From assembly GCA_028753945.1 (NCBI GenBank), contig JAPNXP010000001.1, forward strand, positions 1,178,001 to 1,242,000: a stretch of 64,000 nt of DNA. Direction: 5' to 3'. Source of the stretch: Hexactinellida sp. DTS-2022 (Eukaryota > Porifera > Hexactinellida). Both the position numbers and the translations under genes were made by a program. The notes beneath the pieces were generated by a model, which was not told where the DNA came from, made no database searches, and worked only from the letters and a program-made list of their open reading frames with translations. This document shows, one piece after another, positions 18,167 through 56,255 of this stretch. Position 1 is the stretch's first letter. Each line of letters starts with the position of its first letter.

Positions 18167-18736
18167 ATGAGTGTAATTAATCAGGTCGACATGGAGCTGG
18201 ACAGCCTGCTAGACGAGGTAGAGTCGAGGTACATATTTAGCTCGCCTTCCAGTTCCCCCCTCCCATTCCGGAGGAATTCTCTCCGAGACGAAGTCGACCT
18301 AGAGGTAGAAGCGTTGTTGGAGGATATTAAGAAGATAGAAAGAACTGCATCTGGTCCGATAAGATCAGTTTCAATCTCGCAGCAAGCAAAACAGCTGCGA
18401 CCTAGTATCAGGTGTGACCACCTGTACATCGCTGGTACGTATAAAGAAATGGGGAAATCTTCAAGCGCGTGCATTAGAGCCTGTGGTAATATTCGTTGCA
18501 CATCATGTGACTTTGATATACTCGCAATAGACAATCGTAAATGGACCGAACTCGCTGACTATCTTTTCTTCAGGAACCACATGCCAGATAAGCAAAAGCT
18601 ACTGAAACAAACTAGAGTGGTGATGGGTTGTAGAGCGTATGCGTGTCAGTGCACCTGGGTATCAGTTCAAGATCTGTTGAAAGTGGCTGATAACCCATCG
18701 CTCAGGTCAAAGTGGGTTTGTGGGAAACATTTTTAA
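18167..18736 (+). CDS. CFAP418: Cilia- and flagella-associated protein 418
   Basis: Homologue of CFAP418 (C8orf37), a ciliary/photoreceptor protein linked in humans to retinal dystrophy and Bardet-Biedl-like disease. The 189-residue protein (human about 207) starts with LDSLLDEVESRY, matching the family's N-terminal LDELLDEVESK. The conserved C-terminal half shows the cysteine-rich block RCTSCDFDILAID, then DYLFFRNHMPD, RAYACQCTWVSV and the terminal WVCGKHF. It is intronless. The ATG at 18167 is the first in frame and gives the family-typical start. Its promoter region carries a MITE. Confidence 0.94.
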   Translation: MSVINQVDMELDSLLDEVESRYIFSSPSSSPLPFRRNSLRDEVDLEVEALLEDIKKIERTASGPIRSVSISQQAKQLRPSIRCDHLYIAGTYKEMGKSSSACIRACGNIRCTSCDFDILAIDNRKWTELADYLFFRNHMPDKQKLLKQTRVVMGCRAYACQCTWVSVQDLLKVADNPSLRSKWVCGKHF

Positions 18737-19671: not shown

Positions 19672-19828
19672 CAGTGGATGCCGGTTATAAGAACCTCGTC
19701 GGGAACTGCATATAATGTTCTTATAACCAGCATAAATTATACAGGCTATATGGCAACCGTTTTCCAGTAGAATGTTCTCATATCCGGTATGTTATTATAA
19801 CCGGTGTTCTTATATCCGATGTCTACTG
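19672..19828. mobile_element. CAGTGGATGCCGG-family MITE
   Basis: TA-flanked (19670-19671 and 19829-19830). Left end CAGTGGATGCCGGTTATAAG; right end TTCTTATATCCGATGTCTACTG. Family mates at 30600-30748 and 58320-58492 share the internal GGCAACCGTTTTCCA word. pogo/Tc1-mariner type by its CAGT start and TA duplication. Confidence 0.8.
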
Positions 19829-19830
19829 TA

Positions 19831-19955
19831 GTAAACTCGTTAATTCATACGAACACGGATAAGGCTAATACAATATAAGGAGTACAAGGTATGACTCCAG
19901 TTAATACGATTTTTTGGATAATACGAACAAATTTCGACAGTTCTTATTAAAAAGG
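19831..19955. mobile_element. pogo-like MITE fragment
   Basis: Begins GTAAACTCGTTAATTCATAC and includes GAACACGGATAAGGC, AGGAGTACAAGG and GGATAATACGAACAAA, words shared with copies at 17985 and 44247. It immediately follows the previous MITE, so one may have landed at the TA of the other. Confidence 0.55.
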
Positions 19956-20010
19956 ATTTAACTTTCGAAATCTGGTTTTTATTCTAATATCGGCGGCCGA
20001 TATACAAGTA

Positions 20011-20206
20011 CAGTCAGGTCTGCTTATTGTGAACAAGATTTCGTCTGCTTATTATGAAGATTTTTTAATTATGAACAAGCCCTATGATCCAATCTAACAA
20101 CTTACATAGGGTTTGTATTAGGTTGAGTTCGCTTATTATGAAGTCTAGCTAGTCTTTCTATTATGAACATGGTCCCTTGAATGTTCATAATACAAGAACA
20201 TGACTG
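20011..20206. mobile_element. CAGTCAGGTCTGC-family MITE
   Basis: TA-flanked element beginning CAGTCAGGTCTGCTTATTGT and ending CAAGAACATGACTG. The interior repeats CTTATTATGAA. An older relative is at 6302-6534. Confidence 0.7.
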
Positions 20207-21239
20207 TATAAGTAAATGCTTATTAATTTGTTGCTTAAAACACTTACTCTAGCCCATTATTTAGATTGCAACTCTGTAAATTTACGAGCTTTCTATCTAA
20301 TGAGCTCAGTACACACGAGAGAGAAGTGCTATACTTGGTAGGTTACTTTGTATCTAAAATAGTACATTAGATTTGGTCGATTTTACTGCTAGAGTTTCTT
20401 TTGAATAGGCAAGTATACCATCATTGTTATGGTAATCTTTCTAACCCCACAACATTCTTTCTTATATTGAGTAATTCTCCTAATTGTTGTTGTTTGTTTT
20501 AACTTCTTTGACTGAAAATATTGATTTTGGGTATATTATTTGGTTAGTTGGTATTCATTAACTTATTTGTAGGTTTTGCTATTATTACATGGTTCTGACA
20601 CGCTGGTCTTATTTACTAGAAAGTTTATAGCATTGTTTCAAAGCGATTATTCATCGAATTATGGCTGACTTTATCAACCTACTATTATTGGAATCTGTTA
20701 GTATTTTGTTAGAATCAGCATTTGAGGAAGAAATAAGGCAATATACTCTTTTCTCATAATTATTATTCTATCTTTTAACTATCAATCTTTCCAACAAGTT
20801 TTTCTAAAGCATTTATACCCGTACGTACGTATTTGACATTATTTATTTATATCCATAGTACTATAGGCTTACTGCACTTTTACTATTGCGCCACCCTGGT
20901 CCCTCTTGTCAGCGTTCTCTCCATTCATTCTTATAGTTTGTTTATACTAGCTATTAGCACATAGCTAACGTCTGGGTGCACAGTTCGCCAGACCAATGGT
21001 ATGAAAGGAATGTTCAACAGCTAACACTACAAGCAGAAGTATATATCAGTTCTCTCTTTTACTTTTTCAGCGTATGCATAACCATGGTAAGTCACAAAAA
21101 AGCAAAGATATCTATTTGAGATATTCATAAATTTGCCCATATTGTGCCTACTCGTAACATTAATTATTAAAGAGTGGTGTTGCTATATATTCTGGTAGGC
21201 TAGAGAGACTATTCACTTCCTAGTACCAATATTGATCTA

Positions 21240-24200
21240 TTGTTCGATCTAGCTATGGCCCAGAATGTATACTACCCCGTCTACCCCGAATCTAGCAGCA
21301 GTGAGGGACAAATATATGACCCAAATCGAGCGCAACCCTTCGCGGAAATCGGCGCCAACTACTCGCGGCCGTACGTGGGGATCGCGGTTGTGTGCCGGTG
21401 CACCGGCGGACAGGTGCTCTGCATCCTTCAAAGGAAAGGACAGAATTCCTTCGGGTCTCTCAAGTGGTCCTTCCCTGGCGGCAGATTAGACCAGGCCAAC
21501 GATTTGGAGGAGAACGGCTCGACAGGAACCAAACGCAAGCTGCTGGAGACCTGTGGGGGCGGGACGCCCAACGGACTCCCACCCCTCATTCACATTATAT
21601 GGAGCCAGTCCGGCAAAGTATGTTATCTCTCTATTTATACCGTTTCTATTCTGCAGCAAACTGAGTGTATGTATGAAGGCCAGTCTCTTCGCTGTTTGTA
21701 TTCTACTCTGTTGTACATTCATAATCCTACTGGCTTGTTGGCTAATTGACAGAAAAGGGAATATCCAATTTCCTAGAATACTCTTTCTTTTCATTGAGAA
21801 TAATGAGACTGATCTTGATAAAATATTAAACACCATTCTTCTCATATTTCCCATTCTCCCTGTTTCTTGGTATCTGTCAGAAGCTATAATGGACTAGCAT
21901 AGATGGCCTCTTTGTTTGCATACCCATTTTGATTCTTCTGGATTTTCTGGCTTTCTTATCTAATTGTTTAGTTAGGTTGGAATTACAAGTATTTGGCTTT
22001 ACTACTTCTTAACCTCCATAATACAGTGCATAATTATACATGCAATGTGCGATTGTGTTAGTTGAATTCCTAATCGGATGGTGTCCAATTACAGTAGAAC
22101 CTCGTTAGTCCATCAAAATTAATTCGCCTTATCCGGATTCGTGTTAAGTTCTTAACCAATATAATTTGTATTATAAAGGCTTTGAAGGGGCTGAAATAGT
22201 GTTCGTATTAATTAACCGGAATTTCGTATTAACTGTGTTGTACTAACGAGGTTCTACTCTATATCTAACATTCAATGGAATGAGATATATAAAAAATAAT
22301 ATTTTATCAACATTCCTATATAATATTTCTATCTGCTATTTCTCTGTAGAATTACCACACTCTGTATCACGTGTTCTCTATCGACCCCGACGCGGACACC
22401 AAGTGGCTGGACTGGCACCCGGCGCCCCTCCCGGAGTTCGTGCACGAAGTGGACACCTCGGCCCAAGAGCTGCTCATCGACAGAACTAGGTTCGAGTGCA
22501 AGGCTGGCAACTGCTGGGTGGATTTGGAATGTCTGGGACGTGAATGCTATCAGCTGGTATGTTTATCCTATCTCTTCTCGTCTGTACTTAACTATAGTTA
22601 ATATTAGTTATAGTGAGGGCATCATTAGTTAGAGTGTAGTTATGAAATATTAACTAGGTCGAGAGAATACAATTTATTTATTGAATGCCTAAAATATTTC
22701 CATATCTAATAAGATATACTATTTATCGAGTGAGTGCGAATCAATAGTGACAAATAATCTTACTTTTATGTTCAAGCGTGAGGTCACGGTTCAAGGTATT
22801 CAATTCGAACTAACGACAATACTCTTAACTTGATTTGAGCTAATGCCAGTTCAACAAATTCGAACTAAGCAGTCCTATCAAAATGCATTTGTGTTTAGGA
22901 CAGCAACCCTCTCTCCCGGCCCGACCTGCACCGGGGGCTCATCAACTGGGTGCAAGTCTACGCCAAGCAGACCTTCACACACCTCAACATGAGCACCACC
23001 CTCCCGGACCCCCGCCTGCACCGCTTCCCGTATCCGCGGCGCCGACACTCGAGTCTCCCCGTCAGCCACTACGTGCAGGGAATAACCATGGACACGCCCC
23101 AACTCCCGCAGAACTTCCCTGACGCGCTCTCCCACCTGCAGGCGATGAGCACGCTCCCCTCGGAGCTGCAGTCCCAGCCCCTCTATCCCATTCCTCTGCA
23201 CATTCCGCAGTTTATAAACCCGGCCCACAGGTCCGCGGGGGGCTCCGGCTCCATGTCCCCCCAGCAGCTGCTCTTCAACCCAGTCTCCCCCGCGATTAGC
23301 CCCACGGTCCCCAACCCCACCCCCTCGGCGCCCACCTCCCCCGGGGGGTACGCCCCCACCAGTCCCAGCAACTCCATCTCCTCCGGGAGCAGCATCTGTC
23401 TGGGCGTGCCGCTGCCGCACTACAAGCCCTACGACCGCGCCACCGACTCCCCCAAGAGCTTTATATCGGAGCCGCCCTTCCCCACGGAGCGGCCCTCCAC
23501 AGCTGACTCCGCGGACAGCGCCTCGTCAGCTGACGAGCGCAAGAGCATGCCGTGTCAGTACTTCCTGGCGGGGCACTGCAACTACGGAGACAGCTGCTGG
23601 TACTACCACCCCTCGCAGCCGGCCTTCCCGCAGTACTTCGAGCGGGACTCGCGGGTGCCGCTGCTCCCGCCGCACTACCCTCAGTACTCGCGCGGCCGCT
23701 TCTACCTGCCCGCCTCCGTCCCGGGCCAGAGTCTGGCTAGCTACCCGGCCCTCATCCCGCCCCTCCCCTACATGTACCCAGGACAGTTCTCAGGCCAGGC
23801 CCCGCACCACGGCATGGTCAGTCCCTACAGTCGCTACCATCGGCACTACAAGCAGAGACCCGTCTTTCCGTACTTCAAAGTTATCCTCGAGGAGAAGCTG
23901 CGGCTCTCCCCGATAACAGGGTTCACCGGCTGCCAGAACCAAGTGTTCATCGTGTACAGCAATGACGTGCTCATATACGACTACTGCTACGTACAGAACA
24001 CCAGTCGCATCAACCTGTCATACCAGAGCGAAGAGACTTTCGCGACTTTTAACATCACTTGCATCCAGGGCTCCAACAAGCACCTCGGGATAATAGTACT
24101 GGGCTGTGCGGATGGGACTCTCATCGCTTGGAATTGGATTAGCAAGCAGTACCTAGTTGGAGACGCACTTAAGGTAATTGGAATCTTAATAATATCGTAT

Positions 24201-25785
24201 ATTTATAGGTTTAAATCAGGTGTATTTGCAATTACGTAATATTAATATTCTTCCTAGCCGGACCCAATCTCTGCGCTGTGTGTGCTATCGGAAAACTCCT
24301 TGCTGGCTGGTACCATGGACGGGAGACTCTTAATGTACCATTTCTCTCTCTCTGAGCAGCAACGCATCGAGTGTGTGTTCGAGGATTCTTCTCATCACAG
24401 CTGTATCACTGATATACACGTAAGTAATGGGATACATTTAATTATGCAATCCCCTCGGCCCTCAGTCGTACCAGAGATTAGTGTGTGGTTAATTAAGTGA
24501 GATACAGTTTATAGATTAATAAATATAATCAGTAGCCAGACAGTAGGTATCCTTTAGTTAGTACGAACACCAGGGAACTGTTGAAATTTGTTTGTATTAT
24601 CTGCATTATTTTGCTAGGGGATTTAAACCTTGTACTCCTTAACCGATAATCCGACTTATCCGTGTTCGTATTAACGAGAGTTTGCTGTATGTATGTACGT
24701 ATATACAAATGAAATGAATATCCGATTAGTAAATAGTTTGATGTTCTATTAAGGAATCGTTAGGCTATGTAATATTATCGGAAGATCCTAAATTGTATTC
24801 TAATTAATTAATTAAGTTATTGAATACAGTGGAGCCTCCCATAACGGACAACCCTCGTGGCACGGATTATTTATTTAGCATATGTCTAATAGAAAAGCAA
24901 CCTCTAAATAGCGGACAACCTCTAAATAGCGGACAACCTCTAAATAACGGACATCGGTTCCGGTCCCAAGGTGTCCGTTGTTCAGAGGCTCTACTGTAGT
25001 TACATTGTATACTATCTTACTGGGCTATATATAATTCTTCATAGTATACTAAATATTAATTACAGCCTGTTGCTAATCCTAGTATAATCGAGTATTCGTA
25101 AGGCTAAGATCTGCTGTGCGTAATGCGTGGAAGCTAAAATGTATTTGTTTAGAGCCATGACGGACACGCAGTGACTGTAGACACTTCGAGGAACATTTTT
25201 GGGTGGAAACTAGACGCCACTCAGGCAACTCTTATTTTCAAGTCGGAATCGCATGACGTCATATTCCGCTCGCACCTAATCCACAACTTCCTGCTGGCGC
25301 TCAGCTTCCCCCGCCCCAGTGGCCACGAGACCGAGGGCGAGCAATCCTGGCCCGTGTACCACATGCAGCCGACACACATACACACCTCGACCATCCACGA
25401 GGAGGTGATGAGTGCTAATCTATCGCAGCTGAGTCTGAATGCCGTCACCAGAAGCAACCTGGAGATGTGGGATCTGTTCACCGCAGAGAACAAACCCATG
25501 ATGAACAAGTACCTCGAGAACGAGTTCACCTGGAGTGCGGTGTGCCACACGCCCAATGGGATATTCCTTGCCATATCCAGTGTTCTAGGCGAAATATTAA
25601 TTATCGATTGTTACAGTTTCAACGTTTTAATGACGATCCCTGCTATCCTTCAATCTGATCCAAATGCCAAATGCCAAGGGATCTACTCTCAATGCGCCCC
25701 ACGACAGGAAAGTCAGGTGTTTAATATTAATATTTTAAGCGTTTGGTCAGATGGAACAATTAAAATACACAACTGTCGGCTCTGA
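21240..25785 (+). CDS. Nudix-like / CCCH zinc finger / WD40-like fusion protein
   Basis: Five exons join in phase 0: 21240-21617, 22350-22556, 22899-24173, 24258-24419, 25153-25785, giving about 884 residues (start could also be the ATG at 21255). Residues about 45-190 resemble a Nudix hydrolase: YVGIAVVCRCTGGQVLCIL, then SLKWSFPGGRLDQ, then RKLLETCGG where an active enzyme has RE-U-x-EE-x-GU. Both expected glutamates of the REUXEE core are changed and the spacing is enlarged, so catalysis is probably lost. A Pro/Ser-rich linker follows. At about 414-433 lies a canonical CCCH finger, C-x7-C-x5-C-x3-H (CQYFLAGHCNYGDSCWYYH), which suggests RNA binding. From about 510 to the end there are beta-propeller-like blades (LGCADGTLIAWNW, AGTMDGRLLMYHF, SHDGHAVTVD, SVWSDGTIKIHN). 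I know no family with this architecture. Introns two and three are short; introns one and four contain MITEs. Confidence 0.85.
22092..22259. mobile_element. pogo-like MITE in intron 1
   Basis: Inside the first intron of the Nudix-CCCH-WD40 gene. Left end CAGTAGAACCTCGTTAGTCC after TA; right end ACTAACGAGGTTCTACT. Classic CAGTnnAnCCTCGTTA start of pogo-derived MITEs. Confidence 0.8.
24556..24687. mobile_element. pogo-like MITE in intron 4 (inverted orientation)
   Basis: Carries the family words in complement: CCTTGTACTCCTTAACCG, CTTATCCGTGTTCGTATTAA, ending ACGAGAGTTTGCTG before TA. Related to copies at 17985 and 44247. Confidence 0.6.
24837..24996. mobile_element. CAGTGGAGCCTCCC MITE in intron 4
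   Basis: TA on both sides. Left end CAGTGGAGCCTCCCATAACG; right end GTTCAGAGGCTCTACTG. The interior has three tandem copies of ACCTCTAAATAGCGGACA. Non-coding pogo-type element. Confidence 0.8.
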
Positions 25786-27586
<1,801 letters not shown>

Positions 27587-27910: not shown

Positions 27911-28441
27911 ATGGAAGCAGACGGCCTTCTTAAGCTCGCTTCGCTCCTCCAGCAATCTGACCAAGAGGCTGAATCTCGCGAAGCTCCGACTAGCCTATTT
28001 ACCCCCGCGAGCATCGGTCCCCCGGACCTCCCAGACAGCCAACCCGCCGCAGAACAGTCGAAGGACATCTGGCGTAACTCAGAAGTAGACCGACTAGTGG
28101 CCTACAGCGACCCCAGACCCGCTCCGGAGTACGAGATGAAGTTCCAGCAGGCTGTGAACACAGAGGACATGTATCTAGGCATGGGGAACAAACACCCGGG
28201 CACTGCGTCTTGCGAATCCATGGTTGTTCGGGTTAAACTTAATGGCACCAAGAATAGCAGTGAAATACAATTAGACGTAAAAGAGAGTCTTCTCCTACTA
28301 ACTACTCCTAAGTATTATCTTTCACTGAACCTTCCTAATCCAGTCGACGACACACTTACTCGTGCTCAGTGGGACATCGACACAGATACTCTTATACTCA
28401 CTCTCAAGTTGAAGCGGGTTTATGACTTTTTAAACTTCTAA
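27911..28441 (+). CDS. DNAAF6: Dynein axonemal assembly factor 6 (PIH1D3)
   Basis: Cytoplasmic co-chaperone with HSP90 in preassembly of axonemal dynein arms. The 176-residue protein (human about 214) has an acidic N-terminus ending in DIWRNSEVD, then the PIH-type EYEMKFQQAVNTEDMYLGMG, which parallels human [20 protein letters not shown]. A CS-like beta-sandwich follows, with MVVRVKLNGTKNSSEIQLDV, KESLLLLTTPKYYLSLNLP and a C-terminal TLILTLKLKRVYDFLNF. Intronless; ATG at 27911 is the first in frame. Confidence 0.93.
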   Translation: MEADGLLKLASLLQQSDQEAESREAPTSLFTPASIGPPDLPDSQPAAEQSKDIWRNSEVDRLVAYSDPRPAPEYEMKFQQAVNTEDMYLGMGNKHPGTASCESMVVRVKLNGTKNSSEIQLDVKESLLLLTTPKYYLSLNLPNPVDDTLTRAQWDIDTDTLILTLKLKRVYDFLNF

Positions 28442-36056: not shown

Positions 36057-37049
36057 ATGAGTGCAGCCAGCGACGAGCCCCCTCCGCCCGATATGAAGAG
36101 AGTACGACTGGCCGCTAAGGTAATAAAGGAGTTCGTGCACTACACCCCTGTTATGACGTCATCATCCATTGATGAGCTATACGGATTAAACTTCCACTTT
36201 AAATGTGAGAACTTCCAAAAGACGGGTTCCTTTAAGATCCGAGGCTGTCTGTTCGCGGTGGACTGCCTCAGCAGGGAGAGAAGCCGCCCGCCCATCCTGG
36301 TGACGCACAGCAGCGGGAACCACGCGCTCGCGTTGGCCAAGTGCGCCCAGATCCGTGGCCTGCAGTCCCACATTGTGATGCCACGGACCGCAAACGCGTA
36401 CAAACAGGCCACTGTTAAGACGTACGGGGGAGAGGTGCATCTCTGCGATGACTCGGAACAGGCGAGGCACGAAATGATGCTTCAGGTGATGGCGGAGAAA
36501 GGACCGGATGCGGTATTCATTTCGTCCTGTAACCACCCCGACATAATGGCGGGACAGGGGACGATCGGTCTGGAGATCCTGGAGCAGGTTCCTAACGTGG
36601 ACGCCATAGTGGTGGCGGTCTCGGGCGGGGGGCTGGCAGCAGGCATCTGCATTGCCGCTAAGCACCTGAAGCCAGGTGTGAGGATATTCGCAGCTGAGCC
36701 CGAGGCAGCTGATGACTGCGCTCAGTCGTTTGCTGCGAAGAAAAGAATTCCATTGAAAAGCAAACCTGTCACTATAGCTGATGGCTTAAAGACATCTGTT
36801 GCCACCTTAACCTGGCCTGTTCTGCTGGAGCACTTGACAGACGTGATAACGGTCTCCGAGAATGAAATACTGTCTGCTATGTACCTGAGCTGGGAGAGAC
36901 TTAAGATATTCGTAGAGCCGTCTGCAGCCGCCGCAGTAGCCGCTGCATTCAAGTTGAAACAGCTGTCTTCAGCTTCAGGCGTGGAGCATGTGTGTGTTGT
37001 GGTCTGTGGGGGGAATGTGGACCTCGCGTCCATTCCTCCCAAACCGTAA
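36057..37049 (+). CDS. Serine racemase-like PLP enzyme, copy 1
   Basis: Fold-type II PLP enzyme of the serine racemase / serine-threonine dehydratase family: interconverts L- and D-serine and can also eliminate water to pyruvate. 330 residues (human SRR 340). Key residues are present: PLP lysine K60 in NFQKTGSFKIRG, the proton-donor serine S86 in HSSGNH, the phosphate loop SGGGL (first position Ser where human SRR has Gly), and the divalent-metal acidic site in AAEPEAADD. The last 244 bp of coding sequence are nearly identical to the paralogue at 55266-56255 while the rest is diverged. Which amino acid it racemises cannot be told; related invertebrate enzymes can act on aspartate. NAAA follows 261 bp downstream. 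Confidence 0.92.
   Translation: MSAASDEPPPPDMKRVRLAAKVIKEFVHYTPVMTSSSIDELYGLNFHFKCENFQKTGSFKIRGCLFAVDCLSRERSRPPILVTHSSGNHALALAKCAQIRGLQSHIVMPRTANAYKQATVKTYGGEVHLCDDSEQARHEMMLQVMAEKGPDAVFISSCNHPDIMAGQGTIGLEILEQVPNVDAIVVAVSGGGLAAGICIAAKHLKPGVRIFAAEPEAADDCAQSFAAKKRIPLKSKPVTIADGLKTSVATLTWPVLLEHLTDVITVSENEILSAMYLSWERLKIFVEPSAAAAVAAAFKLKQLSSASGVEHVCVVVCGGNVDLASIPPKP
36803..37046. repeat. Near-identical tract shared with copy 2
   Basis: Matches 56003-56246 with about five mismatches in 244 bp and no gaps. The offset is exactly 19200. Homology drops sharply both upstream and just after the final shared codon. Confidence 0.9.
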
Positions 37050-54431: not shown

Positions 54432-55265
54432 CACAGTTTGCCGTGGCATACCGTATATGAATCTTGTAGGAATTATATACAGTTCCACTGTCCGAGTATC
54501 TAATAAATTAATCTAACAGAGATGCTAATATCTATCACACATGCTTGAGTGAGTTATAAATACATAATTTATAGTTTAGATTAACAACAGATTTTTGCAT
54601 TTCTCGTTAGTTTCGGTATCCAATTTAAGCTATTCAGTAGTTTTGCGAAATTAATCACATATTATAAGTAGATTTGTCCGAAGTGAGACAAAATGCTATA
54701 GTGAATACTGTGTTGCAAATTAATTTTGGTTTGTAATAAGATATTACAAGCTTCAGCTCCCCAAAGTACAACATAAATTAATTGCTTTGGTTAGTAAGTG
54801 CTGCGGATAATTATAAGAACCAAATTTAACTAGTCTACTGACTTAATTGTGTCATTGGCTCATTATTTATTGATTTATACTGTTTGCAACTAACAATTAT
54901 AGAGTTAGGTAATTACAGTAGTGTTCGCGTAATAGCAAGTCGCATTTTGCACGAAATTTGCTTGCTAGTAGGCGAACTTGTTATTAGAGGAACAAAATTA
55001 ACATTAATGCTCGCATGGGGACTCCAAATAACTTGCTAATAGAGAGCAATATTTGCTATTTAGAGCAATTGCTATTAGGCTAACATTGTAGAATTTACAT
55101 GCTACAGGATATATCTAAATTTCAAATTATACCTTCCTGTATGATTAACATTCCAGCTTTTATATACTATAAGCAACATTCCAATGGATAATAATGCCGT
55201 ATCAAAAGAATACGGTATAATTGAGAGTATACTAGTTTATTTGAGTTGTTAGTTGAGTGTGTCTA
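54432..55265. other. Intergenic, BBS4 to serine racemase copy 2
   Basis: AT-rich, with AATAAA at 54502-54507 (70 bp after the BBS4 stop; plausible poly(A) signal) and a CAGT-type MITE at 54915-55088. Nothing else recognised. Confidence 0.55.
54915..55088. mobile_element. CAGTAGTGTTCGC MITE
   Basis: TA-flanked; left end CAGTAGTGTTCGCGTAATAG, right end GCTATTAGGCTAACATTG. Better preserved family mate of 12806-12955. It lies about 180 bp upstream of the racemase start codon. Confidence 0.75.
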
Positions 55266-56255
55266 ATGGCCAACTGGGATCTGCCACCTACTTTCGAAGA
55301 CATACGAAAAGCTGCTGAAACTATAAAGCCGTTCATTCACAAAACGCCCATTATGACGTCATCGTCTCTAGACGTCATGCATGGCTTGAAGTTCTACTTC
55401 AAATGTGAGAATTTCCAGAGAACGGGGTCCTTTAAGATCAGAGGCTGTATGAATGCAGTGACACGTGTTTGCGAGGAGAGAGACACGCCTCCGATCCTTG
55501 TAGCGTTCAGCAGCGGGAACCACGCACAAGCAGTGGCGAAGACGGCTCAGATAAAGGGACTGGAGGCACACATAATAATGCCCAGCTATTCGCCAGCTGT
55601 TAAGATCAGATCTGTTAAGGACTATGGAGGCCATGTCTATCCCTGCGAAACTCTGATGCCAGAAATAGTAAGCAAGGTGGAGGAAGTTAAGAAAGCACTG
55701 GGGCCAGATGCGGTTGTTATCCACCCATACGACAACCCCTATGTGATGGCGGGCCAGGGCACTGTGGGGCTGGAGGTGCTGCAGCAGGTCCCGCATCTGG
55801 ACTCCGTCGTAGTGGCCGTCTCGGGCGGGGGGCTGATATCTGGCATGTGCATCGCTATTAAGAATATAAAGCCAAGCGTCAAGATATTCGCAGCTGAGCC
55901 TGAGTCAGTCGGCGATAAGCATCGCTCTTTCCTGGCTAAAAGGAGGATTCCTATGGAGAGTCGACCCAAGACTATAGCCGATGGACTAACTGCGCCAATC
56001 GGCACCTTAACCTGGCCTGTTCTGCTGGAACACTTGACAGACGTGATAACGGTCTCAGAGGATGAAATACTGTCTGCTATGTACCTGAGCTGGGAGAGAC
56101 TTAAGATATTCGTAGAGCCGTCTGCAGCCGCCGCAGTAGCCGCCGCATTCAAGTTGAAACAGCTGTCTTCAGCTTCAGGCGTGGAGCATGTGTGTGTTGT
56201 GGTCTGTGGGGGGAATGTGGACCTCGCGTCCATTCCTCCCAAGCCGTCTACATAG
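55266..56255 (+). CDS. Serine racemase-like PLP enzyme, copy 2
   Basis: Paralogue of the gene at 36057-37049; 329 residues. Conserved catalytic features: PLP lysine K57 in NFQRTGSFKIRG, serine S83 in FSSGNH (the preceding His of copy 1 and human SRR is Phe here), the SGGGL phosphate loop, and AAEPESVGD at the metal site, where the aspartate is kept but neighbours differ. Start taken at the ATG at 55266 (MANWDLPP). The final 244 coding bp are almost identical to copy 1, then the reading frame ends two codons later with its own TAG. The two genes probably differ in substrate or activity upstream but share the same C-terminal lobe. Confidence 0.92.
   Translation: MANWDLPPTFEDIRKAAETIKPFIHKTPIMTSSSLDVMHGLKFYFKCENFQRTGSFKIRGCMNAVTRVCEERDTPPILVAFSSGNHAQAVAKTAQIKGLEAHIIMPSYSPAVKIRSVKDYGGHVYPCETLMPEIVSKVEEVKKALGPDAVVIHPYDNPYVMAGQGTVGLEVLQQVPHLDSVVVAVSGGGLISGMCIAIKNIKPSVKIFAAEPESVGDKHRSFLAKRRIPMESRPKTIADGLTAPIGTLTWPVLLEHLTDVITVSEDEILSAMYLSWERLKIFVEPSAAAAVAAAFKLKQLSSASGVEHVCVVVCGGNVDLASIPPKPST
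56003..56246. repeat. Near-identical tract shared with copy 1
   Basis: Counterpart of 36803-37046; see that entry. About five base differences, most synonymous. Confidence 0.9.

Follow-up and report, generated by a model that had tools for sequence, protein, structure and literature searches.

A sponge gene predicted to fuse a degenerate Nudix domain, a CCCH zinc finger and a propeller-like region

A gene of the hexactinellid sponge Hexactinellida sp. DTS-2022, lying in a 64,000-nt stretch of contig JAPNXP010000001.1 (positions 1,178,001 to 1,242,000, hereafter the window) in a genome of 112.4 Mb and 18 contigs, is predicted to encode a protein in which a degenerate Nudix domain, one CCCH zinc finger and a propeller-like part are fused. 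This composition, first put forward in an earlier note on the same DNA, holds up in the comparisons of protein and DNA sequence given here. Five exons, spliced computationally from the window DNA, join in frame as that note had claimed and give 879 codons plus a stop, with no internal stop; the N-terminal Nudix-like domain belongs to a group of related proteins in which the Nudix box has been altered in the same way.

The canonical Nudix box is described as Gx5Ex7REUxEExGU (PMC12210691). In place of REUxEExG the window protein reads RKLLETCG, in which two of the three box glutamates are replaced and which no longer conforms to the consensus. An ortholog search of the kind recommended in the earlier note, made at the protein level with exon 1, yielded eight other proteins carrying the Nudix exon (P0003-P0010; 45-93% identity, E 1e-72 to 1e-18). 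R-K-L-[LM]-E-T-C-G is common to seven of the nine aligned sequences, namely the window protein and P0003-P0008. The two relatives most distant from exon 1 have other cores, RELEEECGG in P0009 (a full box) and RELMKECGG in P0010 (nearly full); they score 31.8 and 23.6 bits, respectively, against Pfam NUDIX (PF00293), above its cut-off of 21.1 bits. Around the box, KWSFPGGRLD, CGGG, GLP and LIHI are constant or almost constant across all nine sequences. The box positions presumably correspond to E53, E56 and E57 of MutT, of which we take E53 to be the catalytic base and E57 to be one metal ligand. The description of the domain as catalytically dead is likely to be right, with the reservation that one glutamate, E98, remains.

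In a tree of the exon-1 proteins the seven altered-box sequences form a clade (support 97/96) that does not include P0009 and P0010; the outgroup consisted of three of ten ordinary Nudix pieces, its branches are long, and six of nine inner branches are poorly supported. The simplest reading is that an enzyme-type ancestor lost the two glutamates on the stem of the seven-sequence clade, after which the exon would have been conserved. When the genome was searched with P0009, this locus was the only match at E<=1, from a first screening that let one candidate through; an intact copy of this Nudix subfamily was not found in the genome by that search.

The assignment to the Nudix family draws on a profile of the ten canonical Nudix pieces, of which this genome supplied six and other loci four. 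Residues 36-222 score 24.1 bits with this profile, the best shuffle reaching 5.6 (1090 of 2000 shuffles were reported), and residues 36-101 score 25.4 bits, a value attained by none of 3000 shuffles; by this measure the N-terminal Nudix half is firmly established. The closest PDB sequence matches of an exon-1 profile are to MutT-type hydrolases, including NUDT15 and MutT, and are weak (best NUDT15, E 0.014); both of these are free-standing enzymes with an intact box. A family search of the genome gave 17 Nudix matches, none at this locus, and NCBIfam gave no match over a cut-off for five pieces. Candidates from viral (two loci, 33 pattern matches) and prokaryote (five loci, 95 matches) collections align at 29-39% identity to parts of the exon; each of these loci (L009-L015) has a regular Nudix box, and they were therefore set aside as ordinary Nudix proteins.

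The zinc finger has the exact canonical C-x7-C-x5-C-x3-H spacing that had been reported for it. Against Pfam zf-CCCH (PF00642, cut-off 20.5 bits) the excised piece scores 25.6 bits, the whole window protein 19.4, P0001 20.2 and P0002 19.8, and it is the exact spacing together with the profile match of the excised piece that places the finger in this family. P0001 (92% identity) and P0002 (68%) are the two relatives found in a protein search with exon 3; the four finger ligands are identical in all three sequences. The contigs from which P0001-P0005 and P0007 derive reach 0.5-3.5 Mb and can be read as host chromosomes within metagenome assemblies; those of P0006 and P0008-P0010 measure 1.4-4.2 kb.

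Between the Nudix-like part and the finger lies a disordered-looking Ser-Pro-rich linker, which across the three sequences is more conserved than the start of the propeller. Identity between the window protein and P0002 is 92% in the linker (residues 294-356), 84% in the finger region and 63% in the propeller start (residues 511-612), in a comparison of three sequences whose regions were picked after looking. The linker contains an identical run of 27 residues, and 98 of 10000 shuffles gave one as long. Its YAPTSPS heptad resembles, we assume, the repeat of the RNA polymerase II C-terminal domain; as a single heptad chosen after looking, it is only a lead towards mimicry of that domain. RHSSLP at residues 239-244 (RHSSMP in P0002) is likewise a lead only, to what we take to be a 14-3-3-type motif.

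The C-terminal part (residues 510-879) matches Pfam propeller families, the best being Beta-prop_EML_2 at 29 bits (E 9e-7; family cut-off 90), and the strongest stretch covers residues 574-693. There is thus moderate sequence support for propeller blades in the middle of this part. The propeller-like repeats of the earlier note have their support in residues 574-693, at scores under the family cut-offs; a PDB sequence search with exon 5 by itself gave nothing at E<=10. The designed propeller Ika8 (PDB, E 6.6e-12) was rejected as strong evidence, as residues 587-648 were counted over its four near-identical blades; each single blade alignment has an independent E of 0.6-2.6, and the match was counted as weak.

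The features of the gene are collected in Table 1. All four introns are GT-AG and in phase 0, the length of each exon is divisible by three, and the four junctions proposed earlier (21617/22350, 22556/22899, 24173/24258 and 24419/25153) are identical to those of the computed model. The start is moved slightly, to an ATG; the 21240 given in the earlier note is merely an in-frame TTG. The gene model rests on three things: a contrast in GC content, the residues that follow exons 1 and 3 in the relatives, and coding bias from the exon-3 acceptor. GC content is 0.49-0.63 in exons and 0.24-0.36 in introns. In all eight exon-1 relatives V follows the G-[KR] at which exon 1 ends in the window, as would be read from a GT donor of matching phase, an observation at the protein level only; P0001 and P0002 also go on with V at the end of exon 3 or next to it. 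The C-terminal Nudix half was considered as support for the exon join and discarded, since 168 of 3000 shuffles scored as high for residues 102-190, 442 of 3000 for residues 166-222 and 253 of 3000 for residues 102-222. Apart from its own five exons, the 879-residue protein has a single, weak match in a search of the genome (C17, 14.3 bits, E 0.2); at the sensitivity of that search the gene is therefore single-copy. An Rfam scan of the window gave no RNA at gathering scores. Inverted repeats lie in intron 1 (22090-22261; 37 nt, 84%) and downstream of the gene (26098-26235; 25 nt, 88%) and are possibly small transposon-like elements.

Table 1. Positions of the predicted exons and protein features in the window (position 1 is its first nucleotide).
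Feature	Position	Strand	Extent	Content or basis
Exon 1	21255..21617	+	121 codons	Variable N-terminal tail and N-terminal half of Nudix-like domain
Degenerate Nudix box core R-K-L-L-E-T-C-G-G	21534..21560	+	residues 94-102	9-sequence alignment
Exon 2	22350..22556	+	69 codons	Presumed C-terminal half of Nudix-like domain
Exon 3	22899..24173	+	425 codons	Presumed Nudix-like end, linker, CCCH finger, first propeller blades; single frame
Ser-Pro-rich linker	23238..23396	+	residues 304-356	Single YAPTSPS heptad at 23349-23369
CCCH zinc finger	23553..23609	+	residues 409-427	C409-x7-C417-x5-C423-x3-H427
WD-type propeller start	23856..24173	+	from ~residue 510	Pfam propeller families
Exon 4	24258..24419	+	54 codons	Propeller blades; inside Pfam propeller stretch
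Exon 5	25153..25785	+	210 codons and stop	Presumed remaining blades

It is very improbable that the locus instead holds two genes, one for a Nudix-like protein from exons 1 and 2 and one for a CCCH-propeller protein whose translation would begin at ATG 22989, the first in exon 3. That ATG does match the predicted start of P0001 and P0002, although such a start is the gene caller's choice and says little; the exon-2 frame would also end at a stop at 22601 if intron 2 were kept, and the two parts occur together in no other genome examined. The GC content at third codon positions (GC3) speaks against this division. It is 0.90 over the 30 codons from the exon-3 acceptor to ATG 22989, compared with a maximum of 0.67 among 4123 overlapping 90-base non-exonic windows (starts 19701-26900), and 0.33 over the 90 bases preceding the acceptor. 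Translation of these 30 codons is therefore very likely, which requires a further exon ahead of exon 3 and hence ahead of the finger and first blades. The closest candidate for it is exon 2, with the donor GTATGT and a matching phase; past this donor GC3 falls to 0.33 over 15 codons. AATAAA and ATTAAA are absent from introns 2 and 3 (intron 1 has ATTAAA at 21825 and intron 4 AATAAA at 24518), and their absence from intron 2 likewise speaks against two genes. GC3 of exons 1-5 is 0.70, 0.77, 0.84, 0.59 and 0.61, and that of the last 30 codons is 0.67 in exon 2 and 0.53 in exon 3. Because exons 4 and 5 and the ends of exons 2 and 3 do not exceed the non-exonic maximum, only the start of exon 3 is settled by this measure.

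A number of observations weigh against, or qualify, the reading of a single three-part protein whose Nudix domain has become a binding module. Pfam NUDIX, a check proposed in the earlier note, does list the window protein, yet at 13.7 bits for the whole protein and 16.9 for the excised domain, below the cut-off; P0003-P0007 also fall below it and P0008 is not listed. With the Nudix profile built here, the score of residues 102-222 is -0.8 bits, a value that 253 of 3000 shuffles reached, and exon 2 has no significant score. Because the signal is confined to residues 36-101, one half of the domain is seen and the other is presumed from its length and position; the Nudix-like fold claimed earlier has sequence support for the N-terminal half, the C-terminal half being invisible in the sequence. 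Structure prediction of exon 1 with the nine aligned sequences has low confidence (predicted local distance difference test, pLDDT, 44, with no confident part); its strand pair at residues 43-61 and helix at residues 93-100 come in the order expected of the start of a Nudix domain. Box glutamate E98 is still present in the window protein, so the statement that the glutamates of the REUXEE core had been lost is correct for two of three. A single CCCH finger can bind protein as well as RNA. For the propeller, single-sequence structure prediction of exon 5 has low confidence (pLDDT 39), and P0001 and P0002, which hold about the first 100 propeller residues only, have no listed match to a propeller family. 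As to the gene model, 30 of 648 splice combinations tried stay open, and so openness of the frame alone does not single out the five-exon arrangement. Finally, among 4228 candidates in a search with the full-length protein none reached E<=0.001, and no relative joining the Nudix part to the finger was found in searches with the full length, exon 1 or exon 3; the join is thus known from this one genome.

The domain order was called unprecedented in the earlier note, a word too strong for the pairs. Precedents are found for two of them, Nudix with CCCH in fungi and CCCH with WD40 in plants; the triple of Nudix, CCCH and WD40 was not encountered in a search of open-licence papers (PMC4630921 included). 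Most members of the fungal NUDIX subfamily A are described as carrying W2 and zf-CCCH domains, with a mean disorder of 51% and a distribution that is 100% fungal (PMC12210691). Compared by description, this subfamily shares Nudix and zf-CCCH with the sponge protein and differs in its W2 domain and in the lack of a propeller among the domains listed; W2 gave no match in Pfam searches of the window protein, which does not have the subfamily A architecture. In all 13 new NUDIX subfamilies of that study the Nudix motif is said to be well preserved (PMC12210691). Plant ZFWD proteins have one or more CCCH fingers followed by seven WD40 repeats, and animal homologues are stated to be absent (PMC8124945); by description they share the order of finger then propeller and differ in that no Nudix domain is mentioned for them.

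For function, a tentative reading, to which we give somewhat less than an even chance, is that this pseudo-Nudix, Ser-Pro linker, finger and propeller protein acts as a non-catalytic adaptor bringing a partner complex to chosen RNAs. The altered Nudix domain would no longer carry out phosphohydrolysis and would hold an RNA or nucleotide ligand, by analogy to CFIm25/NUDT21 and Syndesmos/TIRR; the CCCH finger would supply a second RNA contact, the propeller would bind a protein partner, and the linker might be a regulated docking segment through phospho-Ser-Pro. The protein could then carry its partner complex to selected RNAs without cutting them. RNA binding, the adaptor function and the role of RNA-regulatory scaffold suggested in the earlier note are what we infer from domain types and analogy.

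Neither CFIm25/NUDT21 nor Syndesmos/NUDT16L1/TIRR has, to our knowledge, a finger or a propeller. The Pfam family that we take to be that of CFIm25 (PF13869) is absent from the matches of the whole protein at E<=1 and of the Nudix domain at E<=10. The Nudix domain of CFIm25 is reported to bind UGUA RNA without hydrolysis, and it resembles the proposed protein in being a non-hydrolase Nudix domain with RNA binding as its function, which in the sponge protein would hold by analogy (PMC3287031). Syndesmos, a NUDT16 paralogue, is described as having lost the Nudix glutamates and as binding RNA in cells (PMC6294507); it is likened to the window protein, by description only, in the loss of catalytic glutamates.

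Two other accounts of the Nudix domain have to be weighed. It may be a sensor of a nucleotide such as ADP-ribose or a dinucleotide that switches partner binding by the propeller, the finger serving for protein contact, which we consider somewhat improbable. Lone CCCH fingers are weak RNA binders, in line with such a role, while CCCH fingers mostly bind RNA, which counts against it. The Nudix-homology domain of TRPM2, reportedly activated by ADP-ribose without hydrolysing it (PMC4974056), offers a precedent for sensing. It is decidedly unlikely that the domain is still an enzyme, using the remaining glutamate and other acidic residues in a shifted active site: E98 is retained in all seven sequences of the altered clade, and the near-invariance of the motifs around the box would suit continued activity, as would the fact that other members of the Nudix group are documented to have lost the box (PMC12210691). 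Against this, the altered core has K and T in all seven sequences at the positions aligned above with the catalytic base and one metal ligand.

A broader and rather unlikely extension is that the protein represents an undescribed lineage of RNA-guiding adaptors, in which an old Nudix subfamily (KWSFPGGRLD...CGGG-P-GLP-LIHI), turned pseudoenzyme in one clade, would read RNA or its cap and hand a propeller-bound complex to the target, the YAPTSPS linker tying it to transcription or 3'-end processing.

The machinery of 3'-end processing includes a Nudix protein (NUDT21), CCCH fingers and a WD40 protein (CSTF1) (PMC3287031), and a single chain would here join module types that are found in separate subunits there. 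The gene offers a before-and-after view of a Nudix enzyme becoming a binding module: some relatives have the box in full or almost in full, and in one clade two glutamates, the same in every member, are replaced in an otherwise conserved exon. If RNA is bound, the protein would be a one-polypeptide test case for RNA reading by pseudo-Nudix domains.

Genes tied to cilia flank the locus: in Pfam searches two of seven neighbouring frames were matched, to RMP/retinal maintenance (18167-18736) and to the PIH1 CS domain (27911-28441), and other frames in the window are presumably BBS1-, BBS4-, SFI1- and BBOF1-like. Together with the introns, the cilia-related genes mark the source of the DNA as a ciliated eukaryote. 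An inverted repeat at 27176-27267 (44 nt, 95% complementary, 4 nt between the arms) lies near a frame that we take to be kinesin-like from its peptide TVCVRKRPL; around this repeat, overlapping frames on both strands encode nearly the same peptide. Two genes that we name serine-racemase-like (36057-37049 and 55257-56255) are 67% identical over 321 residues, yet over the last 81 residues (TLTWPVLL to PPKP) there is a single difference between them, a pattern suggestive of recent gene conversion in the 3' part of the pair.

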